DNA from: Vogesella sp. XCS3
Lineage (GTDB): Bacteria > Pseudomonadota > Gammaproteobacteria > Burkholderiales > Chromobacteriaceae
DNA length: 64,000 nucleotides
NCBI RefSeq assembly: GCF_020616155.1
Contig: NZ_CP085530.1
Location: 2,137,501 to 2,201,500, forward strand
Direction of reading: 5' to 3'
Below are positions 234 to 63,873 of this stretch, in pieces; position 1 is the first letter of the stretch, and each line of letters opens with the position of its first letter. A program made the translations under genes and the position numbers. Under the pieces are notes generated by a model. That model did no database searches. It was not told where the DNA came from and saw only the letters and a list, made by a program, of their open reading frames with translations.

Positions 234-1427
234 TTAAACGGTAACGTTCGCCTTGAGTTGTGCAATCGCCTCAGCGCTATAGCCCAATGATTTCAATACC
301 GCATCGGTATGCTCGCCCAGTTTTGGTGGTGCCGCCTGGTACTGCGGGGGGGTTCCGCTCATTTTGATGGGGCAGGCTACCTGCGGTACCGCCTGGCCGG
401 CTGCATCGCGCAGCTGGATCGCCATCTGCCGGTGTTGTATTTGTGGGTCAGCAAAGGCTTCGTCTACGGTATTGATCGGGCCGCACGGCACGCCAGCTGC
501 ATCCAGCAGCTTGAGCCACTCGTCGCGGCCACGCGCCAGGAATGCCTGGGACAGCTGTGGCACCAGCTGGTCGCGGTAGTGCACCCGCTGCGGGTTGGTG
601 GCAAAGCGAGGGTCTGCGGCCAACTCTGGCCGGCCGATCAGCTCGCATACTGTGCGGAATTGCTTGTCGTTGCCGCAGGCCAGAATAAAGTGGCTGTCGC
701 CAGCGGTACGGAACACCTGGTAAGGCACGATGTTAGGGTGGGCGTTGCCTAGCCGTGGCGGTACTTCGCCGCCCACCAGCCAGTTCATATTGACGTTGGC
801 CAGCATGGCCAGCGAGCAATCGAACAGCGCCATGTCGATATATTGCCCTTCGCCGGTACGGTAGCGCGCCAGCAGCGCAGCCTGGATGGCGTTGGCCGCA
901 TACAGGCCTGTAAAGAGATCGGTAACTGCCACACCTACCTTATGTGGCTCGCCGTCGGCGGGGCCGGTGATGCTCATCAGGCCGGACATGCCCTGCACGA
1001 TGTAATCGTAACCGGGCAGCTGGGCGTAGGGGCCGGTCTGGCCAAAGCCGGTAATGGCGCAATACACCAGCCGCGGGTTGATGGCGCGCAGGCTGTCGTA
1101 GTCCAGCCCGTATTTCTTGAGGCCACCTACCTTATAGTTTTCCAGCAGCACGTCGGCCTGTGCGGCCAACTGCCGCACGATTTCCTGCCCTGCCGGCTGG
1201 GTAATATCCACCGTCAGTGACTGTTTGCCACGGTTGGCCGCCAGATAGTAAGCCGCCGTGCCGTCCGGCAGGCTGGGTGGCGCCCACTGGCGGGTGTCGT
1301 CGCCAGTACCGGGGCGCTCTACCTTGATAACCTCTGCGCCCAGGTCCGCCAGCAGCTGGCCCGCCCAGGGCCCGGCCAGTACGCGGGTAAGGTCGAGGAC
1401 TTTGATACCTGACAGTGCACCTGACAT
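234..1427 (-). CDS. Family III CoA-transferase (CaiB/BaiF), probably acting on glutarate
   Basis: A 397-residue protein of the CaiB/BaiF (class III) CoA-transferase family, which moves CoA between carboxylic acids through an aspartyl-CoA intermediate. The N-terminus (SGIKVLDLTRVLAGPWAG) and the GADVIK-like segment AEVIKVERPG are family hallmarks. The catalytic aspartate is most likely Asp198 in GQYIDMALFD. Length is normal for the family. It lies directly downstream of gcdH on the same strand and next to ETF-QO, so a succinyl-CoA:glutarate CoA-transferase role (making glutaryl-CoA) is the best inference, but substrate cannot be read from the sequence. A terminator-like hairpin separates it from gcdH. 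The gene carries three copies of the 10-mer repeat (615, 891, 1161). Confidence 0.85.
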   Translation of the reverse strand: MSGALSGIKVLDLTRVLAGPWAGQLLADLGAEVIKVERPGTGDDTRQWAPPSLPDGTAAYYLAANRGKQSLTVDITQPAGQEIVRQLAAQADVLLENYKVGGLKKYGLDYDSLRAINPRLVYCAITGFGQTGPYAQLPGYDYIVQGMSGLMSITGPADGEPHKVGVAVTDLFTGLYAANAIQAALLARYRTGEGQYIDMALFDCSLAMLANVNMNWLVGGEVPPRLGNAHPNIVPYQVFRTAGDSHFILACGNDKQFRTVCELIGRPELAADPRFATNPQRVHYRDQLVPQLSQAFLARGRDEWLKLLDAAGVPCGPINTVDEAFADPQIQHRQMAIQLRDAAGQAVPQVACPIKMSGTPPQYQAAPPKLGEHTDAVLKSLGYSAEAIAQLKANVTV

Positions 1428-1457
1428 GTTTGTCTCCTGTAACGTGGGGCTGCCTGC

Positions 1458-1489
1458 AAAAAAAACAGGCCCGGATTGCAGCCGGGCCT
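1458..1489 (-). terminator. Rho-independent terminator between gcdH and the CoA-transferase gene
   Basis: Read on the minus strand this is AGGCCCGG, a short loop, CCGGGCCT and then a run of eight T. It follows the gcdH stop and precedes the CoA-transferase start, so some readthrough or a second promoter must feed the downstream gene. Confidence 0.75.
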
Positions 1490-1547
1490 CAAGGACAGAC
1501 AGGAACCAACATCCCGCCGGGGTGAAGCCCGCCGGCGGAACATCACA

Positions 1548-2735: not shown

Positions 2736-2756
2736 GCAGTTCTCCTTTGCACTTTG

Positions 2757-2771: not shown

Positions 2772-2792
2772 TATAGTTCTGTATTGCAAAAT

Positions 2793-3674: not shown

Positions 3675-3678
3675 AGCA

Positions 3679-3711
3679 AAAGGTTGGCCGCATATGCTGC
3701 GGCCAACCTTT
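3679..3711. terminator. Bidirectional terminator made of two inverted copies of the 10-mer repeat
   Basis: AAAGGTTGGCCGCA, a five-base loop TATGC, then TGCGGCCAACCTTT: a perfect 14-base-pair stem. A U-rich stretch (GTCTTTTAT) follows on the plus strand and AAAGCAAAA precedes it. It lies between the convergent iclR-type and CBS-domain genes and can stop both. Confidence 0.85.
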
Positions 3712-6035: not shown

Positions 6036-7112
6036 ATGACTCCGCACTATCACAAGCTGGCACTGGCCAGCGCGCTGCTGCTGGCACTGACTGCCTGCAA
6101 AGAGGAAGTCAAACCGGTGGAAGAAATCCGCCCTGTGCGCTACACCATTGCCGGCGCAGGCCAGCAAAACCCTATCCGCCAGTTCAGCGGCGAAGTACGC
6201 GCCCGTCAGGAAAGCCGCCTGGGGTTTCGCGTAGCCGGCAAAGTGGTAGAAAAGCGCGTCAGCAGCGGAGACAGTGTGAAAAAAGGCCAGGTACTGGCCG
6301 TACTGGACGCCAGCGACTACCAGCTCGACAGCCAGGCCAAGCAGGCACAGTTGGCCGCAGCCCAGGCCAATCTGGCCCAGCAGGCTGCCGACCTGAAGCG
6401 CTACCGCGAGCTATTGGCGCAAAACTTCATCAGCGCCGCGCAGGTAGAGCGCCAGCACACCGCCGTGCAAAGCGCCCAGGCCAGCGTGCAGCAAGCCCAG
6501 GCCGCCTTGTCGGCCAGCCGCAACCAGGCCGGCTACACCAGCTTGATCGCCGACAGCGACGGTAGCGTCAGCGAAATCAGCATCGAGCCCGGCCAGGTGG
6601 TAGCAGCCGGCCAGATCGTCGCCAGAGTCGCCGCCGCGGGCGAGCGCGAAGTCTTGATCCAGGTACCGGAAAACGCCGTGGGCGACCTACGCCAGGCCAG
6701 CAGCTTTAACGTGAAATTGTGGGCGGGCCAGCAAGCCATCCCTGCCACCCTGCGCGAGCTGTCCGGCGATGCCGACCCGGCCACCCGTACCTACGCGGCA
6801 CGGCTGAAGCTGTCCGGCCAGCCTGACGGGCTGCGCCTGGGCATGACCGCCACGGTAGAAGCCACCCTGCCAGGCCAGCACAGCGCCGCCATCAAGCTGC
6901 CGCTGAGCGCCATTCTGGACGAGCAGGGCAAGCATTATGTCTGGGTGATTAACCCGAAAACCGCCAAGGTTGGCCGCAAGGCCGTGAGCGTGGGCCGCCC
7001 GGATAGCCAGGGCATCGATATCACTGCCGGGCTGAACGGGGGTGAACAAGTCGTGACCGCCGGCGTACACCTGCTGCGCGACGGCCAACGCGTTACCCTG
7101 CTGGCGAAATAA
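6036..7112 (+). CDS. RND efflux periplasmic adaptor lipoprotein
   Basis: A 358-residue membrane-fusion protein of the HlyD/AcrA type. The signal peptide ends in a lipobox (LALTAC, Cys about residue 21), so it should be anchored in the inner membrane. The beta-barrel/lipoyl region shows FRVAGKVVEKRVSSGDSVKK followed by GQVLAVLDASDYQ, a coiled-coil hairpin rich in Ala and Gln (residues about 90-160), and a second lipoyl half (SDGSVSEISIEPGQVVAAGQ). It bridges the pump encoded 11 bases downstream to the outer-membrane channel. It carries two copies of the 10-mer repeat (6350, 6969). Confidence 0.9.
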   Translation: MTPHYHKLALASALLLALTACKEEVKPVEEIRPVRYTIAGAGQQNPIRQFSGEVRARQESRLGFRVAGKVVEKRVSSGDSVKKGQVLAVLDASDYQLDSQAKQAQLAAAQANLAQQAADLKRYRELLAQNFISAAQVERQHTAVQSAQASVQQAQAALSASRNQAGYTSLIADSDGSVSEISIEPGQVVAAGQIVARVAAAGEREVLIQVPENAVGDLRQASSFNVKLWAGQQAIPATLRELSGDADPATRTYAARLKLSGQPDGLRLGMTATVEATLPGQHSAAIKLPLSAILDEQGKHYVWVINPKTAKVGRKAVSVGRPDSQGIDITAGLNGGEQVVTAGVHLLRDGQRVTLLAK

Positions 7113-11600: not shown

Positions 11601-11637
11601 ATGCGGCCAACCTGTCACCAGGTTGGCCGCATTTTTA
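11601..11637 (+). terminator. Terminator made of two inverted copies of the 10-mer repeat
   Basis: ATGCGGCCAACCTG, loop TCAC, CAGGTTGGCCGCAT, then TTTTATT: a perfect 14-base-pair stem and U tract, 27 bases after the tolC-like stop. The copies face outward in the opposite order from the pair at 3679-3711. Confidence 0.9.
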
Positions 11638-13192: not shown

Positions 13193-14653
13193 ATGTTGAA
13201 CCTGAAAGACCCATCCCTGCTGCGCCAGCAGTGCTACATCAACGGCCAGTGGGTAGATGCCGATAGCGGCGAAACCATCGCTGTCACCAACCCGGCTACC
13301 GGCGAAGTGATCGCCCACGTGCCGAAAATGGGCCGTGCCGAAGCCGAGCGTGCCGTGGCCGGCGCAGCCGAAGCTTTTAAAACCTGGAAAAAGAAATCCG
13401 CCAAAGAGCGCGCCAATATCCTGCGCAAATGGTTCGACCTGATGATGGCCAACCAGGACGACCTGGGCGTGATCCTCACCAGCGAACAAGGCAAGCCGCT
13501 GGCCGAAGCCAAAGGCGAAATCGCCTACGGTGCCAGCTATATCGAGTGGTACGCGGAAGAAGCCAAACGCATCTACGGCGACACCATTCCGTCTACCGGT
13601 GCCGACAAGCGCATTCTGGTAACCAAGGAGCCGATCGGTGTCACCGCCGCCATCACCCCGTGGAACTTCCCGAATGCCATGATCACCCGCAAGGCTGCCC
13701 CGGCGCTGGCCGCAGGTTGCCCGATGGTAGTACGCCCGGCCAGCCAGACCCCGCTGTCGGCGCTGGCCATTGCCGTACTGGCCGAGCGCGCCGGTATTCC
13801 GGCCGGCGTGTTCTCGGTGCTGACCGGTGGTTCCACCGAAATCGGCGGCGTGCTAACCGGTAGCGATACCGTGAAGAAGTTCTCCTTCACCGGCTCCACC
13901 GAAGTTGGCCGCAAGCTGATCAGCCAGTGCGCCGAAACGGTGAAGAAAGTATCGATGGAGCTGGGCGGCAACGCGCCGTTCATCGTGTTCGATGACGCCG
14001 ACCTGGACGCCGCCGTGGAAGGCGCCATGATTTCCAAGTACCGCAACGCCGGCCAGACTTGCGTCTGCGCCAACCGCCTGCTGGTACAGGACGGCGTGTA
14101 CGACGCCTTCGCCGAGAAGTTTGCCGCCGCCGTGGCCAAACTGAAGGTGGGTAACGGCCTGGAAACCGGTGTGACCCAAGGACCGATGATCGACCAGAAT
14201 GCCGTGGCCAAAGTGGAAGAGCACATCGCCGACGCGCTGGCCAAAGGCGGCCAGCTGGTCACCGGTGGCAAACGCCACGCGCTGGGCCACAGCTTCTTCG
14301 AACCGACCGTGATCACCGGCGTGACCCCGGCGATGAAAGTGGCCAAGGAAGAAACCTTCGGCCCGCTGGCACCGGTCTTCCGCTTCCACAGCGAAGAAGA
14401 AGCCATCCAGATGGCCAACGACACCGAGTTCGGCCTGGCGTCGTACTTCTACGCCCGCGACATCGGCCGCATCTTCCGCGTGTCCGAAGGCCTGGAGTAC
14501 GGCATGGTGGCCGTCAACAGCGGCATCCTGTCCAACGAAGCCGCACCGTTCGGTGGCGTGAAGCAGTCCGGCCTGGGCCGCGAAGGCTCCAAGTACGGCA
14601 TCGAAGACTACCTGGAAATCAAATACGTGCTACTGGGCGGTATCGACAAGTAA
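13193..14653 (+). CDS. gabD: Succinate-semialdehyde dehydrogenase (or glutarate-semialdehyde dehydrogenase)
   Basis: A 486-residue aldehyde dehydrogenase of the GabD group. The catalytic glutamate is in MELGGNAPFIVFDDADLD and the nucleophilic cysteine in RNAGQTCVCANRLLVQDG; the nucleotide site is FSFTGSTEVGRKL. It oxidises the semialdehyde product of GabT, probably with NADP+. I choose the ATG at 13193 (MLNLKDPSLLRQQ) because AAAGAGAGA lies upstream and the N-terminus then matches the family; the frame is open eight codons further. A terminator follows directly. Confidence 0.93.
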   Translation: MLNLKDPSLLRQQCYINGQWVDADSGETIAVTNPATGEVIAHVPKMGRAEAERAVAGAAEAFKTWKKKSAKERANILRKWFDLMMANQDDLGVILTSEQGKPLAEAKGEIAYGASYIEWYAEEAKRIYGDTIPSTGADKRILVTKEPIGVTAAITPWNFPNAMITRKAAPALAAGCPMVVRPASQTPLSALAIAVLAERAGIPAGVFSVLTGGSTEIGGVLTGSDTVKKFSFTGSTEVGRKLISQCAETVKKVSMELGGNAPFIVFDDADLDAAVEGAMISKYRNAGQTCVCANRLLVQDGVYDAFAEKFAAAVAKLKVGNGLETGVTQGPMIDQNAVAKVEEHIADALAKGGQLVTGGKRHALGHSFFEPTVITGVTPAMKVAKEETFGPLAPVFRFHSEEEAIQMANDTEFGLASYFYARDIGRIFRVSEGLEYGMVAVNSGILSNEAAPFGGVKQSGLGREGSKYGIEDYLEIKYVLLGGIDK

Positions 14654-14733: not shown

Positions 14734-17100
14734 TTACTGGCCGTCCAGCATGACCACCACACGGTTACGGCCCTGCTCTTTTGCCTGGTAACAACGCAGG
14801 TCGGCGCGCTGCATGATGTCGTGCGGCCGCGTGTCCTGCGGCTGGATCTGGGTCAGGCCGATACTGGCGGTAACGCGGCAGACTTCCGGGTTGCTTTGCG
14901 GGCGCAGGCGGGCAATATCGCCACGCACGGCTTCCATGATGCCCTGCGCGGTATCGCGCGTGCAGTTGTACAGAATCAGGGCAAACTCGTCGCCGCCCAG
15001 ACGGGCGATCACATCGGTATTGCGCAGGCGTTTTTGCAGAATGGCCGCAATATCTTGCAGTATCTGGTCGCCAGCCTGGTGGCCGCCGCTGTCGTTCACC
15101 TGCTTGAAGTGGTCCAGGTCCATCATGACCACCACATTGTTTTGCGCCATCGCCTCGCCGTTATCCAGCAACACGGTTAGCGCCCCCAGGAAGCCACGGC
15201 GGTTCAGCAAGTTGGTGAGCACGTCGTGGGTGGCTTCCCAGCGGTGCTTGCGTTCACGGCGGCGGCGCTCGCTATCGTCGTGCAGTACGCAGATCTTGTA
15301 ACCGTGCATGCTGCCGGCAGCCTGCACCACCGACAGGGTTAGCACCACCGGCTGCAGGCGCATATCGCGCGACAGCAAATCCAGTTCTACCGGCACAGCC
15401 ATACGGGTTTCAGCCAGGGTCGCCAGCGATACCGCCTGGCCGCTATCCGGATACGCCAGCGAGACGAATAGCGCCAGCGAGCGCCCCTGGGCTTCTTCGG
15501 CATTCAGGCCCAGCAGGCGCTGGGCGGGCGGGTTGATGTAACACACCTCGTCCAGCTGGTTGGTCAGCACTACCGCATCGGCAATGGACGTCAGAATGGC
15601 CATGCCGCGCTCGCGTTCGGCGTTCATCGACAGCAGGGCGTCTTCCCTGTCGCTGACATCGTGCACAACGCCGAGAAAACGCAAGATGCTGCCCTGCTGC
15701 AAACGGGTAAAACGCAGCTCTACCTTGATCGGCGTGCCACGGGCGCCGGTCAGGTGGCACAGCTGGTAAAATCCCGCTACATCACCGTGGCGCAAAGCCT
15801 GCCACTCCGGCTCGATGGTGGCGCGCTGAGCCGGGTGCACCGCATCCAGCCAGTGGCGCCCCAGCCAGTCTTCTTCGCGCTGTGCCAGGCCGCCCAGCGT
15901 AAGGGTGGCGTGGTTGCAATACACCAGCAGGCCATCGGCATCGGTGACAAAAATGCCCAGCGGCGATGACTCGTTCAAGGCGCGGAAAAACGCCTCGCGT
16001 GCGGCCAACTCCTGGCTGATGCGTTCACGCTCGCCAAACACATCGGTAACGGTTTGCGCCAGCATTTCCAGCTCGTGGCTGCCGTGAATGTGGACACGAT
16101 CTTCTGCCCCGAATGCCATGGCCTGCACTTTGCCACGCAGCGCCTGCAACGGCCCGAGCAGGCGGTGCACGCCCCACCAGCCCACCGGAAACGCCAGCAA
16201 GGTAGCCAACAGCACGATCAGCATATGGTTACGCGCCATTACGCTGATGGGTTCGTAGGCTTCGCGCAGGGGAAACACGCCACCCACCACCCAGTTCACG
16301 TTTTTCATATTGCGGTACACCATCAGCGCGGGTTCGCCGTTGGCCGCAATACTCTCGGTGCTGCCGTCCCAGCCTTGCAGTGCCTTGCCGAATACCGGGT
16401 CGCGGCTGGTATCGGGGCTGGCCTGCATGATACGGCTGCGGTCGGGGTGGAAGATGGTCAGCCGGCTGGCGCGGGTATTGATATTGATGTAGCCGGTACC
16501 GCCGATGGCAATGGAGCGCAAATCACCAAACAGCTCTGGTGCAAACAGCTCCAGGCTACCACCCAGCACGCCGGCAAACTGGCCGTGCTCGTCCAGGATA
16601 GGCGAGGTGAAAATGATCAGGCTGCGCTTGATGTCGCCAGCCACGCGAACCGGCTCGGAAATCTGCGAGCGCAGGGTGTCACGTGTCTGGGCAAAATAGG
16701 CGCGGTCCAGCACGCTGGTGCCGCGCCGCCCTGGCAGCTCGGGGTAATCGGCCACCACATTGCCGTCTGCATCGAACAGCATGATGCTGCTGAAGCTGCC
16801 CTTCAGGTAACGAAAACCATGCAGGATCTCGGGGGCGTGCTTGCTAATATTGTTGCGGTCCAGCTGCAGGCTGGCAGCCGCCTGCTCCAGCAACACGTGG
16901 CGCGTGCGTACGCGGTCGTCTATATCGTCACTGAGCCGGGTAACCACATCTTCCAGGTGCTGTAGCTGCATTTTACGCACGCGCGCCTTGCCCTCCAGAT
17001 AGCTGAGCGAGCTGGTAAACAGCACCACTACTACCATCAGGAGTGAACAGAACAGCGCCAGTCGTGTGCGCAAGGATTTCAAGCCAAGCCAGCCGGGCAA
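14734..17100 (-). CDS. Membrane-bound diguanylate cyclase with periplasmic sensor and two PAS domains
   Basis: A 788-residue protein. TM1 (about 13-31) and TM2 (about 283-303) enclose a 250-residue periplasmic dCache-like domain; then a HAMP-like linker, a PAS domain (about 370-490, VHDVSDRED at its end), a second PAS (about 500-620) and a C-terminal GGDEF domain. The active site GGDEF (702-706) is intact, and RNTD five residues upstream is a full c-di-GMP inhibitory I-site. There is no EAL domain, so it should only make c-di-GMP. The start is an unusual TTG at 17100 with GGAG six to seven bases before it. The ligand is unknown. Confidence 0.9.
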   Translation of the reverse strand: MPGWLGLKSLRTRLALFCSLLMVVVVLFTSSLSYLEGKARVRKMQLQHLEDVVTRLSDDIDDRVRTRHVLLEQAAASLQLDRNNISKHAPEILHGFRYLKGSFSSIMLFDADGNVVADYPELPGRRGTSVLDRAYFAQTRDTLRSQISEPVRVAGDIKRSLIIFTSPILDEHGQFAGVLGGSLELFAPELFGDLRSIAIGGTGYININTRASRLTIFHPDRSRIMQASPDTSRDPVFGKALQGWDGSTESIAANGEPALMVYRNMKNVNWVVGGVFPLREAYEPISVMARNHMLIVLLATLLAFPVGWWGVHRLLGPLQALRGKVQAMAFGAEDRVHIHGSHELEMLAQTVTDVFGERERISQELAAREAFFRALNESSPLGIFVTDADGLLVYCNHATLTLGGLAQREEDWLGRHWLDAVHPAQRATIEPEWQALRHGDVAGFYQLCHLTGARGTPIKVELRFTRLQQGSILRFLGVVHDVSDREDALLSMNAERERGMAILTSIADAVVLTNQLDEVCYINPPAQRLLGLNAEEAQGRSLALFVSLAYPDSGQAVSLATLAETRMAVPVELDLLSRDMRLQPVVLTLSVVQAAGSMHGYKICVLHDDSERRRRERKHRWEATHDVLTNLLNRRGFLGALTVLLDNGEAMAQNNVVVMMDLDHFKQVNDSGGHQAGDQILQDIAAILQKRLRNTDVIARLGGDEFALILYNCTRDTAQGIMEAVRGDIARLRPQSNPEVCRVTASIGLTQIQPQDTRPHDIMQRADLRCYQAKEQGRNRVVVMLDGQ

Positions 17101-18744: not shown

Positions 18745-18754
18745 GTTGGCCGCA
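18745..18754 (-). repeat. Intergenic copy of the 10-mer
   Basis: Single copy in the 70-base gap between the uncharacterised 479-residue gene and the double GNAT gene, both on the minus strand; it is not part of a hairpin. Confidence 0.85.
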
Positions 18755-18766: not shown

Positions 18767-19927
18767 TCATCCCAATGTCAGCTGATAGCGATAGAAACGC
18801 TCGTCGCGCTGCCAGCCTTGCCCGGCATAAAGCGCCTGCGCTGTATGGTTATCCACAGCCGTGACCAGATCCAGCCGCTGTACACCGTGCTGACGCGCCA
18901 GTGCGGCCGCTGCCTGCAGTAGCGCCTGGCCCACGCCGCGCTGGCGGGCGGCTTCGACCACATACAGGTCATTCAGCAGCCACACCGGGGCGGCCAGTAC
19001 CGAGCTGAATTGCGGCAGCAGCTGGGTAAAGCCAAGCAACTGCCCTTGCTGCTGGTACACCAGCACGTGGCTGTCGGCCTGGATCAGGCGCTGGCGGATG
19101 AAGTCGTGCGAGGTTGGCGCGTCGCCCTGCTTACCGTAAAAGCGGCGATACGCGTCAAACAGTGCGGCCAACTGTGGCAGGTCGGCCAGCGTAGCAGCCC
19201 GGATACCGTCAGGTAGCGTAGCGGCGGCCTGCTGCCGGCGGCATTGATCCACACGGTGGATCTGCTGCCCGGCAGCGTCAAAGTTGGCCGCATCCAGCCA
19301 GGCTTCCAGCACCGCGCGGTTGGCCAGCCATTCGCTGTCCAGCAAGCTGAACCAGGCGGTATCGCGGTTCAGGCCCCAGTTGACGCGCGCCTGGCGGAAA
19401 ATGCCTTCGAAGGTGAAGCCCAGCCGCTCGGCAGCGCGCATGGACGGTGCATTCAAGCTGTTGCACTTCCACTCGTAGCGGCGGTAGCCCCACTCAAAAG
19501 CCTGTTTCATCATCAGGTACATCGCTTCGGTAGCGGCCACCGTGCGCTGCAAGCGCGGCGAAAAGCGCAGCCAACCCACCTCGATGACACCGTTGGCCGC
19601 ATCGATGCGCAGATAGCTACAGCTGCCAATGGCATCGCCGCTCACACCATCGACAATGGCAAAGAACAGCGGATCGCAGCTGCTTTCCATCATGGCAAAC
19701 CACGTGTCCCAGTCGGCATCGCTTTGCGGGCGCGGCATCAGGTAGGCCCAGTCGCGGCCGTCGCGGTCCAGTTCCAGCGCCGCCCGCAGGCTGTCGCCAT
19801 GGCGGGCGCGCTCGAACGGCTCCAGCCGGCAATGCCGGCCTTGCAGCGTGACTTTCTGCGGCGGGCAGGCGCCCTGCCAGCCCGCTACCGGCACACCCAG
19901 TGGCTGTTGAAACGCGTCGTAGTGCAT
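18767..19927 (-). CDS. Fusion of two GNAT acetyltransferase domains
   Basis: A 386-residue protein with two GNAT folds. The first (about 20-210) is RimJ/RimL-like: LQGRHCRLEPFE, GDAIGSCSYLRID, IEVGWLRFSPRLQRTVAATE and NAPSMRAAERLGFTFEG. The second (about 240-385) has LNDLYVVEAARQRGVGQALL, the acetyl-CoA-binding motif, and NHTAQALYAGQGW. Each is a complete-looking domain, so this is a fusion, not a duplication of one. I use the ATG at 19927, one base after the rhodanese stop (TGAtATG), implying translational coupling. Substrates are unknown. Three copies of the 10-mer repeat lie inside (19163, 19283, 19592). Confidence 0.85.
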   Translation of the reverse strand: MHYDAFQQPLGVPVAGWQGACPPQKVTLQGRHCRLEPFERARHGDSLRAALELDRDGRDWAYLMPRPQSDADWDTWFAMMESSCDPLFFAIVDGVSGDAIGSCSYLRIDAANGVIEVGWLRFSPRLQRTVAATEAMYLMMKQAFEWGYRRYEWKCNSLNAPSMRAAERLGFTFEGIFRQARVNWGLNRDTAWFSLLDSEWLANRAVLEAWLDAANFDAAGQQIHRVDQCRRQQAAATLPDGIRAATLADLPQLAALFDAYRRFYGKQGDAPTSHDFIRQRLIQADSHVLVYQQQGQLLGFTQLLPQFSSVLAAPVWLLNDLYVVEAARQRGVGQALLQAAAALARQHGVQRLDLVTAVDNHTAQALYAGQGWQRDERFYRYQLTLG

Positions 19928-21888: not shown

Positions 21889-22354
21889 ACCTGCCCTGTT
21901 GATCAGTGCCTGCCTGCTGGGCCAGCCGGTACGCTACGACGGCGCCAGCAAAGGTATGGCGGCGAGCTGGCAACAGCAGTTGGCCGCACACTACACACTG
22001 CTGCCTTTCTGTCCGGAATGCGCGGGTGGCTTGCCTACGCCAAGACCGGCAGCCGAAATACACGGTGGCCATGGTAGCCACGTGCTGGCCGGCCAGGCAA
22101 CGGTACGCACGGCCAGCGGTGACGACGTAAGCGCGGCCTTTGTGCACGGTGCACAACTGGCTCTGGCGCTGGCGCAGCAGCACGGCTGTACGCTGGCATT
22201 GCTGAAAGCCAACAGCCCGTCGTGTGGCAACCGGCAGATTTACAGCGGGCAATTCGACGGCCAGCTGCAGGAGGGCGCCGGCGTGTGCGCCGCGCTACTG
22301 CAACAACATGGCATAACGGTGTATAACGAAACCGAGCTGGCGCAGCTACTGTAG
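21881..22354 (+). CDS. DUF523-family protein
   Basis: A 157-residue DUF523 protein. Conserved cysteine-containing segments are LLISACLLGQPVRYDG, LLPFCPECAGGLPTPRPAAE and LKANSPSCGNRQIYSG. The cysteines suggest a metal or FeS site, but no function is established to my knowledge. The ATG at 21881 overlaps the MocR stop by eight bases, so the two are translated together. Confidence 0.85.
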   Translation: MTKPALLISACLLGQPVRYDGASKGMAASWQQQLAAHYTLLPFCPECAGGLPTPRPAAEIHGGHGSHVLAGQATVRTASGDDVSAAFVHGAQLALALAQQHGCTLALLKANSPSCGNRQIYSGQFDGQLQEGAGVCAALLQQHGITVYNETELAQLL

Positions 22355-23063: not shown

Positions 23064-23073
23064 TGCGGCCAAC
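23064..23073 (+). repeat. Intergenic copy of the 10-mer
   Basis: Eleven bases after the GST stop and just before the shared terminator; extended to AACCCT. Confidence 0.85.
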
Positions 23074-26325: not shown

Positions 26326-26335
26326 TGCGGCCAAC
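26326..26335 (+). repeat. Intergenic copy of the 10-mer
   Basis: Between the small acidic protein and the thioesterase, extended to AACCTT, 20 bases before the thioesterase start. Confidence 0.85.
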
Positions 26336-38684: not shown

Positions 38685-38694
38685 GTTGGCCGCA
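38685..38694 (-). repeat. Intergenic copy of the 10-mer
   Basis: Between smg and its terminator; in the extended form with CTT after AAC when read on the minus strand. Confidence 0.85.
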
Positions 38695-44228: not shown

Positions 44229-44238
44229 GTTGGCCGCA
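44229..44238 (-). repeat. Intergenic copy of the 10-mer
   Basis: Occupies a third of the 32-base gshA-gshB gap, immediately upstream of the gshB ribosome site region. Confidence 0.85.
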
Positions 44239-44246
44239 GCGGGTGC

Positions 44247-45530
44247 TTACTCGGCGTCGGGGTCGGTGGCTTCCAGTTCGCGCGAGGCCGCCAGCAGCGC
44301 CAGGCGGGCTACCACGCCGTAAGCGTAGAAGCGGTTTGGCGGGGCATCGGGGCCGACTTTATGGTCTGGCAGGCAGGCCGTTTCAAACGACAGCGGCACA
44401 AAGTGCATGCCGGGGGCGTTCAGGTTTTCATCCACACCACGCCCGGTGTGCACGCGGTAGAAGCCGCCCACCACGTAGCGATCCATCATGTACACCACCG
44501 GCTCGGCCACGGCATCGTTGATGGATTCGAAGGTGTGCACGCCTTCCTGCACGATCACCTCGCTCACTTCCAGGCCTTCTTTTACCACCGACATCTTGTT
44601 GCGTGCCTTGCGGTTCAGGCCCACCACCTCTTCCGGTGATTTCACGCTCATCACGCCCATGCCGTAGGTACCGGCGTCGGCTTTTACGATGACATAAGGG
44701 TCGTGGGTAATGCCGTATTCGCGGTATTTGATGCGGATCTTGTCCAGCATCTGCGCCACGTGCTCGGCCAGCGCATCCTCACCCTGACGAGTGTGGAAAT
44801 CCAGCCCGCCTGCCGCGCTGAAGTACGGGTTGATCAGCCAGGGGTCGATGGAGATCAGCTGGGCAAAATCATTGGCGACCTGGTCGTAAGCGGCAAAGTG
44901 GTTGGTTTTGCGACGTACAGCCCAGCCAGCGTGCAAAGGCGGCATCAGGTTCTGTTCGATGCCTGCCAGTACGTCGGGCAGGCCGGCAGACAAATCGTTA
45001 TTCAGCAGCACGATACACGGGCTGAAACCGTCGGCCAGCACCACGCGGTTACCACGGCGTTGCAGCGGCTCGACCGTCACCACGGCACCGTTGGCCGCAG
45101 TCAGCGCGGTAGGCTCGGTGATTTCCGGGTTCAGCGTACCCAGGCGCACCTTCAGGCCGGCTTGCTCGAAAATATGCACCAGCGCGGCCACGTTCTGCAG
45201 ATAGAAGGTATTGCGGGTGTGGTTTTCCGGAATCAGCAAAATGCTCTTGGCTTTGGGGCACACGCGGTCTACCGCGCTTTGTGCCGCCTGCACAGCCAAG
45301 GGCAGAAAATCGGGGTTCAGGTTGTTATGGCCACCCGGGTACAGGTTCATGTCGACCGGTGCCAGTTTGAAACCGCTATTGCGCAGGTCTACCGAGCCAT
45401 AGAACGGCGCAGCGTGGTTGTGCCACTGGCTGCGGAACCAGTGCTCGATATGCGGCTGGGCCGTCAGGATGCGGCTTTCCAGCTCCAACAAAGGGCCGGT
45501 CAGAGCGGTGGTCAAATGCGGTACGGTCAT
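44247..45530 (-). CDS. gshA: Glutamate-cysteine ligase (proteobacterial type)
   Basis: A 427-residue enzyme of the second, non-E. coli type of glutamate-cysteine ligase found in betaproteobacteria and some gammas. Visible blocks: [60 protein letters not shown] and [20 protein letters not shown]. It makes gamma-glutamylcysteine, the rate-limiting step of glutathione synthesis, and heads the gshA-gshB-apbE-dgkA operon. The only annotated promoter space is the 270-base gap upstream. Confidence 0.92.
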
Positions 45531-46815: not shown

Positions 46816-46825
46816 TGCGGCCAAC
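46816..46825 (+). repeat. Intergenic copy of the 10-mer
   Basis: In the divergent gap between the PfkB kinase and the TlpA-like gene. Confidence 0.85.
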
Positions 46826-51649: not shown

Positions 51650-53786
<2,137 letters not shown>

Positions 53787-53875: not shown

Positions 53876-54436
53876 ATGATGTGCCAGTGTTCTACTCACG
53901 CGCAGCACGATGCTGCGGCCAACCCTGGCCGGCGCCAGTTTGTACAACTTGCCGCACTGGGTGGTGGTGCAGCCCTGCTAGGCAGCTTTCTGCCCCAAAC
54001 CGCTTACGCTGCCGGTGGCACCGATGCCCTGCTGCTATCGTGCATGGACTACCGCCTGGTAGATGAGACCGAAGCCTTCATGGCGGGGCTCGGCATGAAA
54101 AACAAGTACGACCATATCGTGCTGGCCGGCGCGGCGCTGGGGGCGGTCACCAGTAAATTCCCGGCCTGGAACCAGGCGTTCTGGGAGCATCTGGACGTGG
54201 CGATCAGCCTGCACCATATCCATAAGGTGATGGTGCTGGACCACCGCGACTGTGGTGCTTACAAAGTGGTATTGGGCGAAGATTTTGGCAAGATTCCCGA
54301 CAAAGAAACCCAGACCCACGCCGAAACCCTGATGACGCTGCGTAAACAGATTCTGGCCAAATATCCGCAGTTGGCCGTAGAAACCTACTTGATGGCGCTG
54401 GATGGCAGCGTGCAGCAAATCGTGCCGAAAGGCTGA
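53876..54436 (+). CDS. Tat-exported beta-carbonic anhydrase-like protein
   Basis: A 186-residue beta-carbonic anhydrase-type protein. The N-terminus is a probable Tat signal (GRRQFVQLAALGGGAALLG, twin Arg 19-20). Zinc ligands follow the beta class pattern: CMDYR (Cys56, Asp58, Arg60) and HRDC (His123, Cys126). It should interconvert CO2 and bicarbonate in the periplasm. Shorter than full-length beta enzymes, so it may be a variant. One repeat copy lies within the signal-peptide coding region. It converges on the hydrolase of the sbtA operon. Confidence 0.82.
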   Translation: MMCQCSTHAQHDAAANPGRRQFVQLAALGGGAALLGSFLPQTAYAAGGTDALLLSCMDYRLVDETEAFMAGLGMKNKYDHIVLAGAALGAVTSKFPAWNQAFWEHLDVAISLHHIHKVMVLDHRDCGAYKVVLGEDFGKIPDKETQTHAETLMTLRKQILAKYPQLAVETYLMALDGSVQQIVPKG

Positions 54437-54505: not shown

Positions 54506-55420
54506 TCAGGCCGTAATACGGTTCAGCCAGGCCAGCAAATCAGCTTCCAGCTGAGCGCGATTGGTTTCGTTATGCATCTCGTGCCGGCCACCCGGGTAGA
54601 CAGTCACGCTCACGTCCTGCATGCCGGCAGCGCGGTAGCGGCTGGCCAGCTGGCCCAGGCCAAACTTGCCCAGGCTCACCGGGTCACGGCTCCCCGCCTG
54701 TAGCCACACCGGGCAGGTTCTGGGCAGAGCGCGGCCGTCCGCCTCACCCAGTTCCAGCTCGATAATGCCGCCAAACAGGTCTATCCAAAGCTGTGGGGTG
54801 GGATGTTGGCCGCATAGCGGGTCGGCAATATAGGCGTCTACCTGAGCCGCATCGCGGCTTAGCCAGTCCAGCCGGGTGCGAGCGGGTAAAAAACCCAGGT
54901 TGAAGCTGCCAAACACCAGCGACGTCATGAATGTACTGGGCTTGCTGGCGCCCCCCAGCCTGGCGACCAGCCGCGCGACACCGCGCATCACACGCGACAG
55001 ATACCGCTGACGGTAGCCGGTAGCAGACAGCACCATGCCGGCCAGACGCTGGCCGTAGCGCAGGATAAAGGCACGTGCAACAAAGCTACCCATGCTGTGC
55101 CCGTACAACACCACCGGCCGCTCGTGCTGCTGGCGTGCGTAATCCACTACCTCGCGCAGGTCGTCCACCACACGCTGCCAGCCCCCCTGCGCGGCAAACC
55201 AGCCCGGCAACGGCGCATGGCGGCCGTGGCCGCGGTGATCGTGCGCATAAACAGCGTACCCCGCCAGTACCAGCTTCTGCGCCAGCGCCTGATAGCGACC
55301 ACCGTACTCGCTCATGCCATGGCTGATCACCACCACGGCGCGCGGTTCGCCGACAGGTAGCCAGCGGCAGCCGTAGATATCGGCCTCGTCACTGGCGGTT
55401 ATACGAAAGGCTTGCGTCAT
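54506..55420 (-). CDS. Alpha/beta hydrolase, monoacylglycerol-lipase-like
   Basis: A 304-residue serine hydrolase of the lysophospholipase/monoglyceride-lipase type. The nucleophile is Ser109 in LYGHSMGSFVARAF, the oxyanion segment is VVVISHGMSEYGGRY, and the acid and His are likely in LQAGSRDPVSLG and YPGGRHEMHNE. No signal peptide, so cytoplasmic. It follows the sbtB-like gene by 29 bases on the same strand and is probably co-transcribed, without an obvious functional link. Confidence 0.85.
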   Translation of the reverse strand: MTQAFRITASDEADIYGCRWLPVGEPRAVVVISHGMSEYGGRYQALAQKLVLAGYAVYAHDHRGHGRHAPLPGWFAAQGGWQRVVDDLREVVDYARQQHERPVVLYGHSMGSFVARAFILRYGQRLAGMVLSATGYRQRYLSRVMRGVARLVARLGGASKPSTFMTSLVFGSFNLGFLPARTRLDWLSRDAAQVDAYIADPLCGQHPTPQLWIDLFGGIIELELGEADGRALPRTCPVWLQAGSRDPVSLGKFGLGQLASRYRAAGMQDVSVTVYPGGRHEMHNETNRAQLEADLLAWLNRITA

Positions 55421-56781: not shown

Positions 56782-56791
56782 TGCGGCCAAC
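56782..56791 (+). repeat. Intergenic copy of the 10-mer
   Basis: In the 126-base gap between the rimJ-like gene and the sbtA-like gene, extended to AACCCT; downstream of rimJ and upstream of sbtA. Confidence 0.85.
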
Positions 56792-58441: not shown

Positions 58442-59572
58442 TTACAAGGTGTCTTTCAGCGCGCGCGCCTGTTCCAGCGCGTCGTCTACGTTGGCCGCCA
58501 GCACACAGTAGTGCGCCATCTTGCGGCCTGGCCGGGCTTGTTTCTTGCCGTAGCTGTGCAGATGGGCGTTGGGCGCTTCCATCAGCACGGCCCAGTTCGG
58601 CTCGCTGCCGTCCTCGCCCCACACATCGCCCAGCAGGTTCACCATCACCACCGGCGATAGCAGGTCGGTCTTGCCGGGTAGCAGGCCGCACATGGCACGC
58701 ACTTGCTGCTGGTATTGGTCGGTGACACAGGCATCAATGGTGTAGTGGCCGGAGTTGTGCGGGCGCGGTGCCATTTCGTTGACCACCAGGCTATCGTCGC
58801 CCAGTACGAAAAACTCTACCGCCAGCACGCCTACATAGCCCAGCGCCTCGGCTAGCTGCACCGCGTACTGCTGCGCGCGTGCGGCCAACTCGGGGGCAAT
58901 GCGCGCCGGTACGATGGATTCGTCCAGAATGCCGTTCTTGTGGATGTTTTCCGATACCGGAAACACGGACACTTGCGCCGCACTGGTACGGGTAACAATG
59001 GCCGACACTTCCAGCTTCAGGTCCAACATTTTTTCCAGCACACAGGCCTGGCCACCCAGGTTGGCGTAGGCGGCGCGGGCTTCGTCGGCGGTTTTCACGC
59101 GCACCTGGCCTTTGCCGTCGTAGCCCAGGCGGGCGGTCTTGAGAATGCCCGGCAGGTAGGGCGACAGCTCGACCTGGATGTCTTCTACACTCTCGATCGC
59201 CAGATAGGGCGCGGTCGGCAGGCCGGCTTTGCCTACCCAGCTCTTTTCGGCAATACGGTCCTGGGCAATGGCCACGCAATCGCCGGATGGCGATACGCGT
59301 GTGGTTTTGGCCAACAGGCGCATGGCATCGGCGTTGACGTTCTCGAACTCGGTGGTAACCGCAGCGCAGCTGCGCGCCAGGGTGGCCAGCGCGTCAGCGT
59401 CGTCAAACGCGGCGCACAGGTGCACGTCGGCAAACTCGGCTGCCGGAGCGTTGGCATCCGGGTCCAGCACGGTTACACGGTAGCCCATACGTTTGGCGGC
59501 GGTAACAAACATGCGGCCCAGCTGGCCACCGCCGAGAATGCCCAGCATGGCTGGCGGCAAAATGGCGGCCAT
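58442..59572 (-). CDS. purK: N5-carboxyaminoimidazole ribonucleotide synthase
   Basis: A 376-residue ATP-grasp enzyme that makes N5-CAIR from AIR, ATP and bicarbonate. The N-terminal Rossmann segment is LGILGGGQLGRMFVTAAKRM; later LGYDGKGQVRVKTADEARA, VLAVEFFVLGDDSLVVNEMA and RPHNSGHYTIDACVTDQYQQ are PurK hallmarks. It uses bicarbonate, so the SbtA/carbonic anhydrase genes nearby could supply a substrate. Start overlaps the purE stop by one base (TAATG). Confidence 0.95.
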   Translation of the reverse strand: MAAILPPAMLGILGGGQLGRMFVTAAKRMGYRVTVLDPDANAPAAEFADVHLCAAFDDADALATLARSCAAVTTEFENVNADAMRLLAKTTRVSPSGDCVAIAQDRIAEKSWVGKAGLPTAPYLAIESVEDIQVELSPYLPGILKTARLGYDGKGQVRVKTADEARAAYANLGGQACVLEKMLDLKLEVSAIVTRTSAAQVSVFPVSENIHKNGILDESIVPARIAPELAARAQQYAVQLAEALGYVGVLAVEFFVLGDDSLVVNEMAPRPHNSGHYTIDACVTDQYQQQVRAMCGLLPGKTDLLSPVVMVNLLGDVWGEDGSEPNWAVLMEAPNAHLHSYGKKQARPGRKMAHYCVLAANVDDALEQARALKDTL

Positions 59573-60060
59573 TACTGCACCTCCGGCAGGCTCATGGCCA
59601 GCACGGTGTCTTCTTGTTGCTTGCGGAAGGCCTTCAGTTTGGCCGCCAGCTCGGGGTTACCATTGGCCAGCATGGCGATGGCAAACAGGCCAGCGTTGGC
59701 CGCACCGGCTTCGCCAATGGCAAAGGTAGCCACGGGAATGCCTTTGGGCATTTGCACGATGGACAGCAGCGAGTCTTCACCACGCAGGTACTTGGACGGC
59801 ACAGGCACGCCCAGCACCGGGATATGGGTCTTGGCGGCCAGCATGCCCGGCAAGTGGGCGGCGCCACCGGCACCGGCGATGATGGCTTTCAGGCCACGCG
59901 CTTCGGCGGTTTCGGCGTACTGGAACAGAAGGTCGGGGGTACGGTGGGCGGAGACGACGCGGGTTTCGAAAGCGATGCCGAAGTCTTTCAGAACGCGCGC
60001 GGCGTTTTGCATGACTTCCCAGTCGCTATTACTACCCATCACGATGCCAACTTCGATCAT
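59572..60060 (-). CDS. purE: N5-carboxyaminoimidazole ribonucleotide mutase
   Basis: A 162-residue class I PurE converting N5-CAIR to [44 protein letters not shown] and [20 protein letters not shown] cover the active site, including the Ser and His. The ATG at 60060 follows CAGCCTCC-type leader and gives the typical [10 protein letters not shown] start. First gene of the purEKC block. Confidence 0.95.
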
Positions 60061-60225: not shown

Positions 60226-60981
60226 CTATAGCGTAGCCAACTGTTGCTGGGCACGCTGCGCAGCCGGGGTGCCCGGGTATTGCTTGATGAGCTTGCGCAG
60301 TGTCAGGCGGGCCTGGTCTTTCTGCTCCAGCTGCAGCTGGTTACCCGCCATCAGGCGCAGGGTTTCGGCGGCTTTGGGGTGCTTGGGGTATTGCTCGGCA
60401 AAGCGGCGCTGGATATCGATGGCGGCGCTGTATTGCTTCAGCGCAGTGTGCGCCACACCCATCCAGTAAGTCGCCTCCAGGCCCTGTTCGCTACCCGGAT
60501 AAGCATCGGCCACGGCTTTCAGCAAAGGCAGCGATTTGGCAAAGTCGCGGGCACGCAGCACTTCCAGCGCCCGCGCCAGTGCGGCATCGGCGGGGTTGGC
60601 CGCAGCCGGCTCGGTGGCCGGCGCCTCGGCTTGCGGCTGGCTGGCATCGCGCAGCTGCTTCTCCAGCTTACCCAGACGCAGGTCGATGTCGTTATACAGG
60701 TCGTTCTGGCGCTTTTGCGTTTCGGCTACCTGGTGCTGCAATACCTCGTTCTGCCCGCGCAGCGTAGACATTTCGCCTTTCAGCAGGGTGACCTGGTTCA
60801 CCAGGTCCAGCAGGCGCTGGTTGGCCAGCTTGGCCTCGACATCCGACAAGCGGGCACTGGCCTGCTGGCTGGAGCTGGCCAGCTTGCTTTCCAGGTCCAG
60901 ACGCGCCTGCTCCAGGTCGGTGGTGGTGGCGCATGCACCCAGTACGATGGGCAACAACAGGGGGAACAGTCGGTTACGCAT
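60226..60981 (-). CDS. cpoB: Tol-Pal system protein CpoB (YbgF)
   Basis: A 251-residue periplasmic protein: signal peptide, a coiled coil (about 25-105, LESKLASSSQQASARLSDVE, then TLRGQNEVLQHQVAETQKRQ), a Pro/Ala linker and a C-terminal TPR domain (LEATYWMGVAHTALKQYSA, FAEQYPKHPKAAETLRLMAG). It links the Tol system to peptidoglycan synthesis at division. The signal ends VLGACATT, a plausible lipobox, whereas the E. coli protein is soluble. The repeat copy at 60595 falls in the linker. Confidence 0.9.
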   Translation of the reverse strand: MRNRLFPLLLPIVLGACATTTDLEQARLDLESKLASSSQQASARLSDVEAKLANQRLLDLVNQVTLLKGEMSTLRGQNEVLQHQVAETQKRQNDLYNDIDLRLGKLEKQLRDASQPQAEAPATEPAAANPADAALARALEVLRARDFAKSLPLLKAVADAYPGSEQGLEATYWMGVAHTALKQYSAAIDIQRRFAEQYPKHPKAAETLRLMAGNQLQLEQKDQARLTLRKLIKQYPGTPAAQRAQQQLATL

Positions 60982-61617: not shown

Positions 61618-61718
61618 GCGACGCTCCTTGTTCTGGCTGGCCGGGTATAGCCAGTGAAATTAATGCGGGTAAATCCTAAAGACTTTTGAACAAAACCAAA
61701 GTTCCGGTGTAGCACGCA

Positions 61719-63008
61719 TCAAGGGTTGAATGGCCCCCAGGCAGCGTCCTGCACCTGGCCCTCCAGCACCCCTAGCTTGACGCGTCCCGGGTGCTGGATA
61801 GAGGCGGCGTACAGCACGCTACGGCCGCCTTCGTCGCTGGCGTACAGCACCATTTTGCCGTTGGGGGCAAAGCTGGGCGACTCGTCAAAAGCACTATTGC
61901 TGATCATGCGTGCATCGCCGGTGGCGAGGTCTTGCAGCATCACCTTGAAGCGCCCGGCTTCGCGGCGCACGTAAGCCAGCTGGCGGCCATCCGGCGAGAA
62001 AGCCGGCGACACATTATAGCTACCCTGGTAAGTCACCCGACGGACGGTCTTGCTGCCATCCAGCGGCTGGATATAAATCTGCGGGCCGCCGCTGCGGTCG
62101 GATACAAACGCAATCTGGCGGCCATCCGGGCTGAACACCGGCTCGGTATCGATAGCGTCGCTGTAAGAAAAGCGGCTCAGCCCGGTGCCGTCGGCATTGA
62201 TGATGTACACCTGCGAGTTACCACTTAGTGTCAGTACGATCGCCAGCTTGCGGCCGTCCGGGCTCCAGGTCGGTGCCGAGTTGCTGCCCTTGAAGTTGGC
62301 CAGCAGGCGGCGCTGGCCGGTGGCCAGGTCTTGCACGTAAATGACGGGTTTCTTGTTTTCGAACGAGACATAAGCCAGGCGGCTGCCATCCGGGCTCCAG
62401 GCCGGTGAGATGATGGGCTCGGCCGAGCGCAGCACGGTCTGGGCGCGGCGGCCATCCACGTCGGCCACTTGCAGGCGCGACTCTTTGCCCTTCTGCACCA
62501 CAAAAGCAATGCGGCTGGCAAACAGGCTTTTGCTGCCCAGCAGCGCCTCGTAAACCATGTCGGCGATACGGTGCGCGACATCGCGCAGCTGCGAGCTGTG
62601 AACATCAAACTCGGCGGCCAGCTTCTGCTCGCGCGGGTTGACGGTTTCGGCCCAGAAAGTCAGGCGCAGCAGGCCACCATCGAGCTTGCTGACTTTACCG
62701 TACAACACGGCACGGCTGCCGTTCTGCTGCCATGGCGCAGGGTCGAAAGCCTGTGGCGAGGCCGGCAGCACGGTGCCACCAGGCGGCTCCAGCAAGCCGA
62801 ACAAGCCGGTCATGGCCAGATCGCTTTTGACGGTTTGTGTTACCGCCTCGGGCAGCCATTCTTCATTTTGCATGGGCAGAATGGTAAGCGGGTAACGGCT
62901 GCTGCCGCCGCCCACGATATCCACGGTCAGGTCGGCACGCGCCAGCGGTGCGGCCAACATCATGGCCAGCAGCAATACGCGCCAGCAGTAAGCAATGAGT
63001 CGGTGCAA
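61719..63008 (-). CDS. tolB: TolB periplasmic beta-propeller protein
   Basis: A 429-residue periplasmic protein: signal peptide (YCWRVLLLAMMLAAPLARA), an N-terminal alpha/beta domain (LTVDIVGGGSSRYPLTILPM) and a six-bladed propeller with repeated SPDGRQ/SPDG blocks (SPAWSPDGSRLAYVSFENKK, PTWSPDGRKLAIVLTLSGNS, PVFSPDGRQIAFVSDRSGGP, PAFSPDGRQLAYVRREAGRF). It binds Pal and TolA. The best start is TTG at 63008 with AAGGAG ahead, overlapping the end of tolA; it gives E. coli TolB length. Confidence 0.95.
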   Translation of the reverse strand: MHRLIAYCWRVLLLAMMLAAPLARADLTVDIVGGGSSRYPLTILPMQNEEWLPEAVTQTVKSDLAMTGLFGLLEPPGGTVLPASPQAFDPAPWQQNGSRAVLYGKVSKLDGGLLRLTFWAETVNPREQKLAAEFDVHSSQLRDVAHRIADMVYEALLGSKSLFASRIAFVVQKGKESRLQVADVDGRRAQTVLRSAEPIISPAWSPDGSRLAYVSFENKKPVIYVQDLATGQRRLLANFKGSNSAPTWSPDGRKLAIVLTLSGNSQVYIINADGTGLSRFSYSDAIDTEPVFSPDGRQIAFVSDRSGGPQIYIQPLDGSKTVRRVTYQGSYNVSPAFSPDGRQLAYVRREAGRFKVMLQDLATGDARMISNSAFDESPSFAPNGKMVLYASDEGGRSVLYAASIQHPGRVKLGVLEGQVQDAAWGPFNP

Positions 63009-63012
63009 GGCA

Positions 63013-63873
63013 TTACTCCTTGGGGCGGAAATTAAGGGTGATACGGCGATAGTCGGCAAAGTCGGCACCTTTGGGTAACGGCGGGAAGCGCCGCACTTCG
63101 GCCAGTGCCGCCAATACCGCCTGGTCCCACGCCGCCGAGCCGCTACTGCGCAGGATACGCGTGCTGCGAATTTCCAGTGTCGGCAAGATGATGACCTCCA
63201 CCGATGCCTCCGGGTTACCCTTGATACCGTCGGGTATCACGATATATGGGCGCACACGGTTCTTGATCGCCTCGCCGTACTGCTGTTTCTGGTCTGGCTG
63301 GCCGTTGGCCGCACCGGTTTTGGCGCCGGTTTTGGCCCCAGCCTGGTTTACCTTGCCCTGCCCGGGGCCGGGTGGCAAGGCATCCAGCTCGGCCAGCAGG
63401 TCGTCTGTTTTCACCGCCGCCGGTTTGGGGTTGGCCGCAGGTTTGGCTGCCGCTTTGGCAGCCACCGTGGTAACGGGTTTCACTGGCGGTGTGGGTTCCG
63501 GTTTGATCAGCTCCGGCTTGGTCTTAGCGACCGGCGGTGCTTTCTCGGCCGGTTTGCTTTCCGGCTGCGGCAGTTTCCTGGCGGGTTTGCCAGCCAGGAC
63601 TTTGACATCGGCAGCCGGGTTCTCCTGCACCGGGGCAGGTGGCGGAGGCGGTGCCTTCGCGGCCACTGTCGGTGCCGGGGTTGGTGAGGGGGCTGGCGTA
63701 GCTACCGGTGCCGCTACCTGGCCGGCATTACCGGCCCATAGCTCTAGCGCCAGCGGTGGCGGCGTCTTGATCTGCTCTGGCGCGGCAGATAGCCACAGGC
63801 ATAGCAGGACAGCCACGTGCAAGAGGGCGGACAGCAACCATGAAGCCGCACCAGGTTGGCGGGAGGCAATCAT
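63013..63873 (-). CDS. tolA: TolA inner-membrane energy transducer
   Basis: A 286-residue TolA. One N-terminal membrane helix (ASWLLSALLHVAVLLCLWLS), a long Pro/Lys/Ala/Thr-rich domain II (about 40-185) and a C-terminal TonB-like domain III (YGEAIKNRVRPYIVIPDGIK, then RSTRILRSSGSAAWDQAVLA). It uses the proton gradient through TolQR to pull the outer membrane inward at division. Two repeat copies (63304, 63430) sit in the flexible domain II coding region. Start overlaps the tolR stop (TGATG). Confidence 0.93.
   Translation of the reverse strand: MIASRQPGAASWLLSALLHVAVLLCLWLSAAPEQIKTPPPLALELWAGNAGQVAAPVATPAPSPTPAPTVAAKAPPPPPAPVQENPAADVKVLAGKPARKLPQPESKPAEKAPPVAKTKPELIKPEPTPPVKPVTTVAAKAAAKPAANPKPAAVKTDDLLAELDALPPGPGQGKVNQAGAKTGAKTGAANGQPDQKQQYGEAIKNRVRPYIVIPDGIKGNPEASVEVIILPTLEIRSTRILRSSGSAAWDQAVLAALAEVRRFPPLPKGADFADYRRITLNFRPKE

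Follow-up and report, generated by a model that had tools for sequence, protein, structure and literature searches.

An abundant repeated word of Vogesella and its sister dialects: a probable branch of the DNA uptake sequences in the Chromobacteriaceae

What purpose could be served by a ten-base word that recurs dozens of times, on both strands, in a single stretch of a bacterial chromosome? The question is raised by 64,000 nucleotides of Vogesella sp. XCS3 (NZ_CP085530.1, positions 2,137,501 to 2,201,500; the whole stretch is called the window here), in which the 10-mer TGCGGCCAAC and its complement GTTGGCCGCA are found 24 and 23 times, respectively, the first of the 47 exact copies starting at 615 and the last ending at 63439. 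The first-pass annotation of the window, whose count and strand split agree with this exact recount, had proposed a self-recognition word for DNA uptake. The sequence-level tests of that proposal were favourable, in that the word is genus-wide, exceeds what codon bias can give, has sister dialects, resembles the DNA uptake sequences (DUS) of the Neisseriaceae and is accompanied by a comP-like pilin gene. In our view the DUS of Vogesella is very probably this word, most fully rendered as AG-GTTGGCCGCA, and its reader a ComP-type minor pilin.

The host genome (G000, a member of genome group g1, i.e. Vogesella) is composed of a 3.72-Mb chromosome and a second replicon of 164.5 kb; the NCBI taxonomy places Vogesella in the Chromobacteriaceae, Neisseriales. 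Chromosomal statistics refer to the window and 31 stretches of 20 kb, together 678 kb of unmasked sequence, the second replicon was covered whole in nine stretches, and genes were called with a custom script, not a standard annotator. When 10-mers were ranked, TGCGGCCAAC came out as the top one in the window, where the best non-overlapping 10-mers reached 11 copies, and GTTGGCCGCA/TGCGGCCAAC was also the top one in the sampled stretches. The word is not restricted to the window, since 2279 copies (1106 + 1173) are present genome-wide, with 3 + 8 for a reversed-letter control. An order-3 Markov null for 40 kb of the host chromosome gave 0.28 expected copies against 34 observed, an excess of about 120-fold, and synonymous codon shuffling within 645 called genes (600 kb) gave a mean of 10.8 copies and a maximum of 18 in 60 shuffles against 332 observed, an excess of about 31-fold. 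The excess had earlier been put at roughly two-hundredfold; a very large effect is indeed found, but that magnitude was somewhat high, the size of the excess depending on the choice of null.

In the window, 11 of the 47 copies lie outside called genes, in keeping with the mixed coding and intergenic placement first described. The coding copies of the sample read mostly as Leu-Ala-Ala (133) or, on the opposite strand, as Ala-Ala-Asn (125), and these commonest frames yield permissive alanine-rich peptides, as would suit a by-product of codon and dipeptide usage. That explanation has a negligible probability: it is contradicted by the 31-fold excess over synonymous shuffles of the same genes, by an intergenic count of 119 among the 451 sampled copies where 52 were expected, and by counts that stay at background level in the family's other genera. 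Codon bias is not the cause of the abundance of the word. A different 10-mer, GCTGGCGCTG, occurs 108 times in the sampled coding DNA of the host against 38 by synonymous shuffle, an excess far below that of the uptake-type word.

A comparison with related genera, which had been suggested as a check, gave low counts. The GTTGGCCGCA word is present in 1871-2895 copies in all 13 Vogesella genomes and in 8-58 copies in all 48 other genomes of the family. Sister words were the top 10-mer in stretches from six other family members. One of them, GTTGGCCGAA, occurs genome-wide 2168 times in G014, 1851 in G021, 1368 in G017, 1245 in G016, 1104 in G013, 893 in G022, 579 in G023 and 183 in G076, and 8-62 times in the remaining genomes, except for counts of 77 and 78 in group g4. 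The other, GTTGGCCGAG, occurs 1940 times in G024 and 1590 in G015, with an intermediate 165 in G023 and 13-92 in other genomes. According to protein matches, G015, G023 and G024 are Crenobacter, G016 is Gulbenkiania (one residue off) and the group of G017 is Aquitalea. Thus, one of three dialects is present in 23 of the 61 genomes of the family and none in the other 38, the sister words being found in 10 genomes of six genera. The GTTGGCCGAA counts of G023 and G076 are below those of their nearest relatives, and the dialect of G023, which has both sister words, is perhaps in transition. The single stretch examined from group g10 contained no copies, though 1851 are present genome-wide.

Beyond the family, the degenerate form GTTGGCCGMR was counted in 399 genomes across the order; it reached at most 223 copies in the 386 genomes outside the family and 1304-2757 in the eight word-bearing genomes drawn. 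Some of the 386 lie up to about fivefold above the reversed control (82 vs 16 in G123; 139 vs 31 in G288), with densities no more than one tenth of those in word-bearing genomes, and this excess is taken as composition. As a positive control, the Neisseria DUS GCCGTCTGAA was found in 1863-4285 copies in eight of nine genomes of one genus and in 247 in the ninth, with 1-12 copies in the other seven genomes given, the host genome, with 6, among them. Sets of 26-146 kb from g7, g8, g9 and three other genomes of the Aquitalea group contained no other DUS-like word as dense as a DUS; repeated 10- to 12-mers are present in the pooled g7 stretches. In the literature searched (without most subscription journals and bioRxiv, and with Crenobacter and Aquitalea not queried by name), no DUS report for these genera was found among the papers listed.

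The word extends beyond ten bases. Upstream of GTTGGCCGCA, A stands at -3 in 197 of the 451 sampled copies and at -2 in 249, and 254 copies have G at -1. Single coding copies show this AG lean too, in the three reading frames used most often, so that it is no mere by-product of terminators or of one peptide; the sister dialects have a similar lean, at 17-37 sites each. The extended word is (A)AG-GTTGGCCGCA. One-mismatch variants are seldom found. The main exception is position 10, where C occurs 75 times, G 81 and T 28, compared with 451 for A, and a weak one is seen at positions 1 and 2; the dialects vary at positions 9-10.

The DUS of Neisseriaceae are likewise 10-12-mers preceded by AG before G+1, present in thousands of copies per genome; each lineage has its own dialect, inverted pairs are found where genes end, and the density in mobile DNA is low. 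The word shares its base with Neisseria GCCGTCTGAA at +1, +4, +6, +8 and +10, and GTTGGCCGAA does so at +9 as well. In register, AGGTTGGCCGAA agrees with AG-mucDUS at 9 of 12 positions and AGGTTGGCCGCA with AG-simDUS at 9, an agreement of 9/12 that shuffled words reach in 0.5-0.6% of trials (p ~0.005-0.006, with seven dialects and both orientations, four of the spellings being in part provisional). The DUS survey of 2013, in the portion of its text available, lists eight dialects, each of which has A at +10 and CTG at +6 to +8, and states that no obvious DUS was seen in the genomes of five relatives (Laribacter, Lutiella, Pseudogulbenkiania and two Chromobacterium); that portion names neither Vogesella nor Crenobacter nor Gulbenkiania (PMC3630211). 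Unlike in those dialects, the base at +7 is C in the present words, so that +6 to +8 read CCG in all three dialects found, with C+6 and G+8 kept, and A+10 is found in two of the three. Any single one of the seven dialects compared matches 4-7 of the 10 core positions. The host genera differ as well, being Chromobacteriaceae, and the uptake role is here putative.

The uptake signal sequence (USS) of the Pasteurellaceae is comparable in abundance, in placement on both strands and in its terminator pairs, and its consensus AAGTGCGGT, as given in the accessible part of the source (PMC13020248), has the 5-mer TGCGG in common with the word. The USS core itself is not present: the bases preceding TGCGGCCAAC are variable, with no AAG before TGCGG, and the base that follows is C and not T. 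For the USS, ComN/PpdA rather than ComP is proposed as the receptor in the part of PMC12616744 available.

The arrangement of the copies raised the possibility that the word is a transcription terminator, or some other element acting at the RNA level, which selection has spread at the ends of genes. Of 31 pairs no more than 60 bases apart, 30 are inverted, where random placement gave 7.3 (maximum of 19 in 2000 trials). Twenty-six pairs are wholly intergenic, each adjoining the 3' end of a gene (12 convergent, 14 tandem, 0 divergent), and divergent gaps are without pairs even though they make up 81 of 412 intergenic gaps. Several pairs have the layout of an intrinsic terminator (A-run, stem, T-run), two of them in the window (Table 1). 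Pairs of one arrangement number 43-113 in each of the 13 Vogesella genomes and 0 in the control; among the sister dialects, g4 has two inverted pairs, g3 has two inverted and one direct, and none were found in 40 kb each of g2, g5 and G017. Terminators likewise contain some of the DUS of Neisseria and of the USS of Pasteurellaceae, according to the available parts of PMC3630211 and PMC13020248. A terminator element would account for the 62 sampled copies in close pairs, many of which are terminator-like, but it is very improbable as an explanation of the whole, as 389 of the 451 copies are single and 331 are wholly coding, in both orientations.

Spacing and orientation bear on a further explanation, namely that a DNA-processing machine reads the word as a chi-like recombination hotspot or as some other motif oriented with respect to replication or segregation. 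Such motifs may well be genome-wide, genus-specific and scarce in foreign DNA, and Chi sites, like HIP1, are very abundant genome-wide words; a slight strand tilt with respect to GC skew was also found, with 246 of 451 copies on the leading strand (binomial p = 0.06, Fisher p = 0.047). Chi-type motifs are, however, usually strongly strand-skewed, and the tilt observed is weak. The inverted pairs at gene ends, a spacing more even than Poisson (variance/mean of 0.79 in 134 bins of 5 kb) and the AG-prefixed resemblance to DUS would be unexpected for such a motif, and we regard it as very unlikely. HIP1 of cyanobacteria has been discussed as a methylation- or restriction-related word (PMC4390886, available in part), and a word of that type, or a mark of chromosomal architecture without an uptake role, would agree with the genus-wide occurrence and with the palindrome GGCC inside the word. 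The word as a whole is non-palindromic and its extension asymmetric, though, and the variation of the lineage dialects at positions 9-10 and the ComP homologue in every word-bearing genome also speak against this alternative, to which we give a correspondingly small probability. From both Chi and HIP1 the word differs in having no strong strand polarity, in being non-palindromic, in its terminator pairs and in dialects accompanied by a ComP-type pilin.

The word is scarce in mobile DNA. The second replicon has 4 copies in its 164.5 kb (0.024/kb) against 451 in the 678 kb of sampled chromosome (0.665/kb). In the stretch G000:C1:1500001-1520000, tailed-phage genes (tail sheath, head, portal, terminase) of mostly host-like GC content lie at 2173-13519, and the sole copy is at 19459, with none among the identified phage genes. 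The low-GC stretch G000:C1:700001-720000 has three copies; it looks like a defence island. The genes observed in it code for two DDE transposases, which do not differ in their Pfam results, and for a BrxC/BrxD ATPase, a TerB-C protein, a DEAD-box helicase and an integrase. Conservation was followed in one 12-kb region. On comparison with five relatives, the word was exact in 35 of 45 site comparisons, where about 17 were expected from same-GC windows, and for the three relatives at 84-85% identity it was exact in 20 of 27, where about 8 were expected from 7-GC windows. The corresponding loci of V. aquatica and V. urethralis have 9 and 8 copies in 12 kb. The result is supportive and not a formal test, because the nine sites recur across comparisons and are non-independent.

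A comP-like minor pilin gene had been named as something to look for, and each of the 23 word-bearing genomes was found to have a ComP-type pilin, although 10 of these genomes had themselves supplied rows of the profile. In the host genome the comP homologue lies at G000:C1:3106142-3106552. The best matches of this profile in the PDB include the ComP structures 2nba, 2m3k and 5hz7, and a structure model of a 94% identical homologue (predicted local distance difference test, pLDDT, 91) has ComP 5hz7 as its best Foldseek match. Features in common with these ComP proteins are a prepilin N-terminus, a W-P-x-L-P motif after the long helix and, in the model, a loop of some 12 residues that separates strands one and two. 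A loop lysine before WPxLP, common to Neisseria ComP, is present in 19 of 20 word-bearing sequences read (not in G017; the loop in L184 is one residue longer), whereas none of the 13 word-less sequences read, which include two paralogues, has it; this is a single correlation on related sequences. In the ComP tree, branches are long and the deep nodes weakly supported. The net charge of the globular part, taken as a sum, is +2 in G000 and -4 to +6 in 20 word-bearing sequences, and no pattern that would make charge a predictor of the word was seen among the ComP homologues read. A ComEC gene with an open frame of 740 aa is also present, and dprA, already recognised in the window, was confirmed by a Pfam match (Table 1).

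The domain PF16732 (ComP_DUS) was rejected as a receptor marker, since it matches 61/61 family genomes because it also takes PilE-type pilins. Its best match in G000, at C1:112281, is PilE-like (best structure 4noa) and was dropped as a receptor. The host PilE-type pilin is 80-96% identical to those of Vogesella aquatica, V. urethralis, two metagenome-assembled genomes labelled 'Neisseriaceae bacterium' and 'Beta proteobacterium L13'. Three tandem PilA-like major pilin genes, two of them nearly identical, were noted at ~8800-10280 (reverse-strand count) of G000:C1:2262001-2282000. In two word-less genomes of the Aquitalea group (G043, G045; loci L157, L160), a second ComP-like pilin without WPxLP was seen besides the ComP homologue, and a ComP-profile match with an in-frame TGA in a third word-less genome (G071:C1:465054-465458) is possibly a decaying gene.

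Several observations weigh against an uptake word read by a ComP-type pilin. A ComP-level match was also found in 34 of the 38 word-less genomes, only g9 (4/4 genomes) being without both the word and such a match, and the presence of ComP was hence rejected as a predictor of the word. In the search against the PDB, PilV tied with ComP. The DD region of ComP has two disulfides between four cysteines (PMC4906244); in the sequences read, only the C-terminal cysteine pair is kept, and the first-strand cysteine (C76) is missing together with its partner, and with them the DD region; 11/11 Vogesella sequences have two cysteines (G010 left out). Four are present in P0010 (Vogesella sp. LIG4), of which two lie in the N-terminal part of the helix and none in the first strand. 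DNA binding by these homologues is putative. As for the word, the CTG at +6 to +8 that is a feature of neisserial DUS is absent, which places it outside the described Neisseria dialects, and the resemblance of the 10-mer without its AG prefix is weaker, shuffled words equalling it in 4-5% of trials.

Table 1. Copies of the word and associated features in the window (for copies, the strand is that on which TGCGGCCAAC reads)
Feature	Position	Strand	Context
Copy	615..624	+	within gene 234-1427
Copy	891..900	-	within gene 234-1427
Copy	1161..1170	+	within gene 234-1427
Copy, inverted pair 1 left arm	3683..3692	-	intergenic
Copy, inverted pair 1 right arm	3698..3707	+	intergenic
Inverted pair 1	3683..3707		two-word terminator-like stem between convergent genes; flanks AAAAG / CTTTG
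Copy	6350..6359	-	coding
Copy	6969..6978	-	coding
Copy, inverted pair 2 left arm	11602..11611	+	intergenic
Copy, inverted pair 2 right arm	11622..11631	-	intergenic
Inverted pair 2	11602..11631		terminator-like stem downstream of gene 10254-11573; then TTTTTATT
Copy	13904..13913	-	coding
Copy	16000..16009	+	coding
Copy	16339..16348	-	coding
Copy	18745..18754	-	intergenic
Copy	19163..19172	+	coding
Copy	19283..19292	-	coding
Copy	19592..19601	-	coding
Copy	21024..21033	-	coding
Copy	21979..21988	-	coding
Copy	23064..23073	+	intergenic
Copy	24232..24241	+	coding
Copy	24481..24490	+	coding
Copy	26326..26335	+	intergenic
Copy	27365..27374	-	coding
Copy	27765..27774	+	coding
Copy	28020..28029	+	coding
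Copy	32297..32306	+	coding
Copy	32804..32813	+	coding
Copy	34788..34797	+	coding
dprA (DNA recombination-mediator protein A)	37082..38173	+	PF02481, E 6.3e-76; transformation gene, permissive evidence only
Copy	37489..37498	-	inside dprA
Copy	38685..38694	-	intergenic
Copy	39519..39528	+	within DNA topoisomerase gene 38797-41091
Copy	42225..42234	-	coding
Copy	44229..44238	-	intergenic
Copy	45090..45099	-	coding
Copy	46816..46825	+	intergenic
Copy	51659..51668	+	coding
Copy	52180..52189	+	coding
Copy	52961..52970	+	coding
Copy	53914..53923	+	coding
Copy	54805..54814	-	coding
Copy	56782..56791	+	intergenic
Copy	58880..58889	+	coding
Copy	59695..59704	-	coding
Copy	60595..60604	-	coding
Copy	62949..62958	+	coding
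Copy	63304..63313	-	coding
Copy	63430..63439	-	coding

With these points taken into account, the system is best regarded as DUS-like, a new CCG-core branch of a known kind that is found in several genera of one family. The word would act as a genome-wide self-mark bound by the ComP-type minor pilin on the type IV pilus, and DNA of the same genus would be taken up by transformation, presumably with the participation of ComEC and DprA, in preference to foreign DNA. Copies would accumulate and persist because the DNA carrying them is preferentially taken up and recombined, and copy pairs would also have been co-opted as transcription terminators. The sister dialects GTTGGCCGAA and GTTGGCCGAG would serve related genera of the family, and the Vogesella-type words may share ancestry with the DUS of Neisseriaceae.

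On balance, we lean towards a history in which DUS words and a ComP receptor predate the divergence of Chromobacteriaceae from Neisseriaceae. Both the CTG core and the DD region would then be neisserial specialisations, and the Chromobacteriaceae would have a CCG-core word and a ComP without the DD region, with at least three dialects. The word would have been lost at least twice (in most Aquitalea and in g7), after which the orphan ComP diverged.

The DUS reports in the literature searched concern the Neisseriaceae only. At least three dialects outside that family, together with a ComP without the DD region, would provide an independent system for studying how a pilin reads DNA. Pairs of word-bearing and word-less species, such as those of the Aquitalea group (one genome against nine), may allow the gain or loss of uptake specificity to be followed, and the words are predicted to be practical tags for the transformation of environmental Vogesella, Crenobacter and Gulbenkiania.

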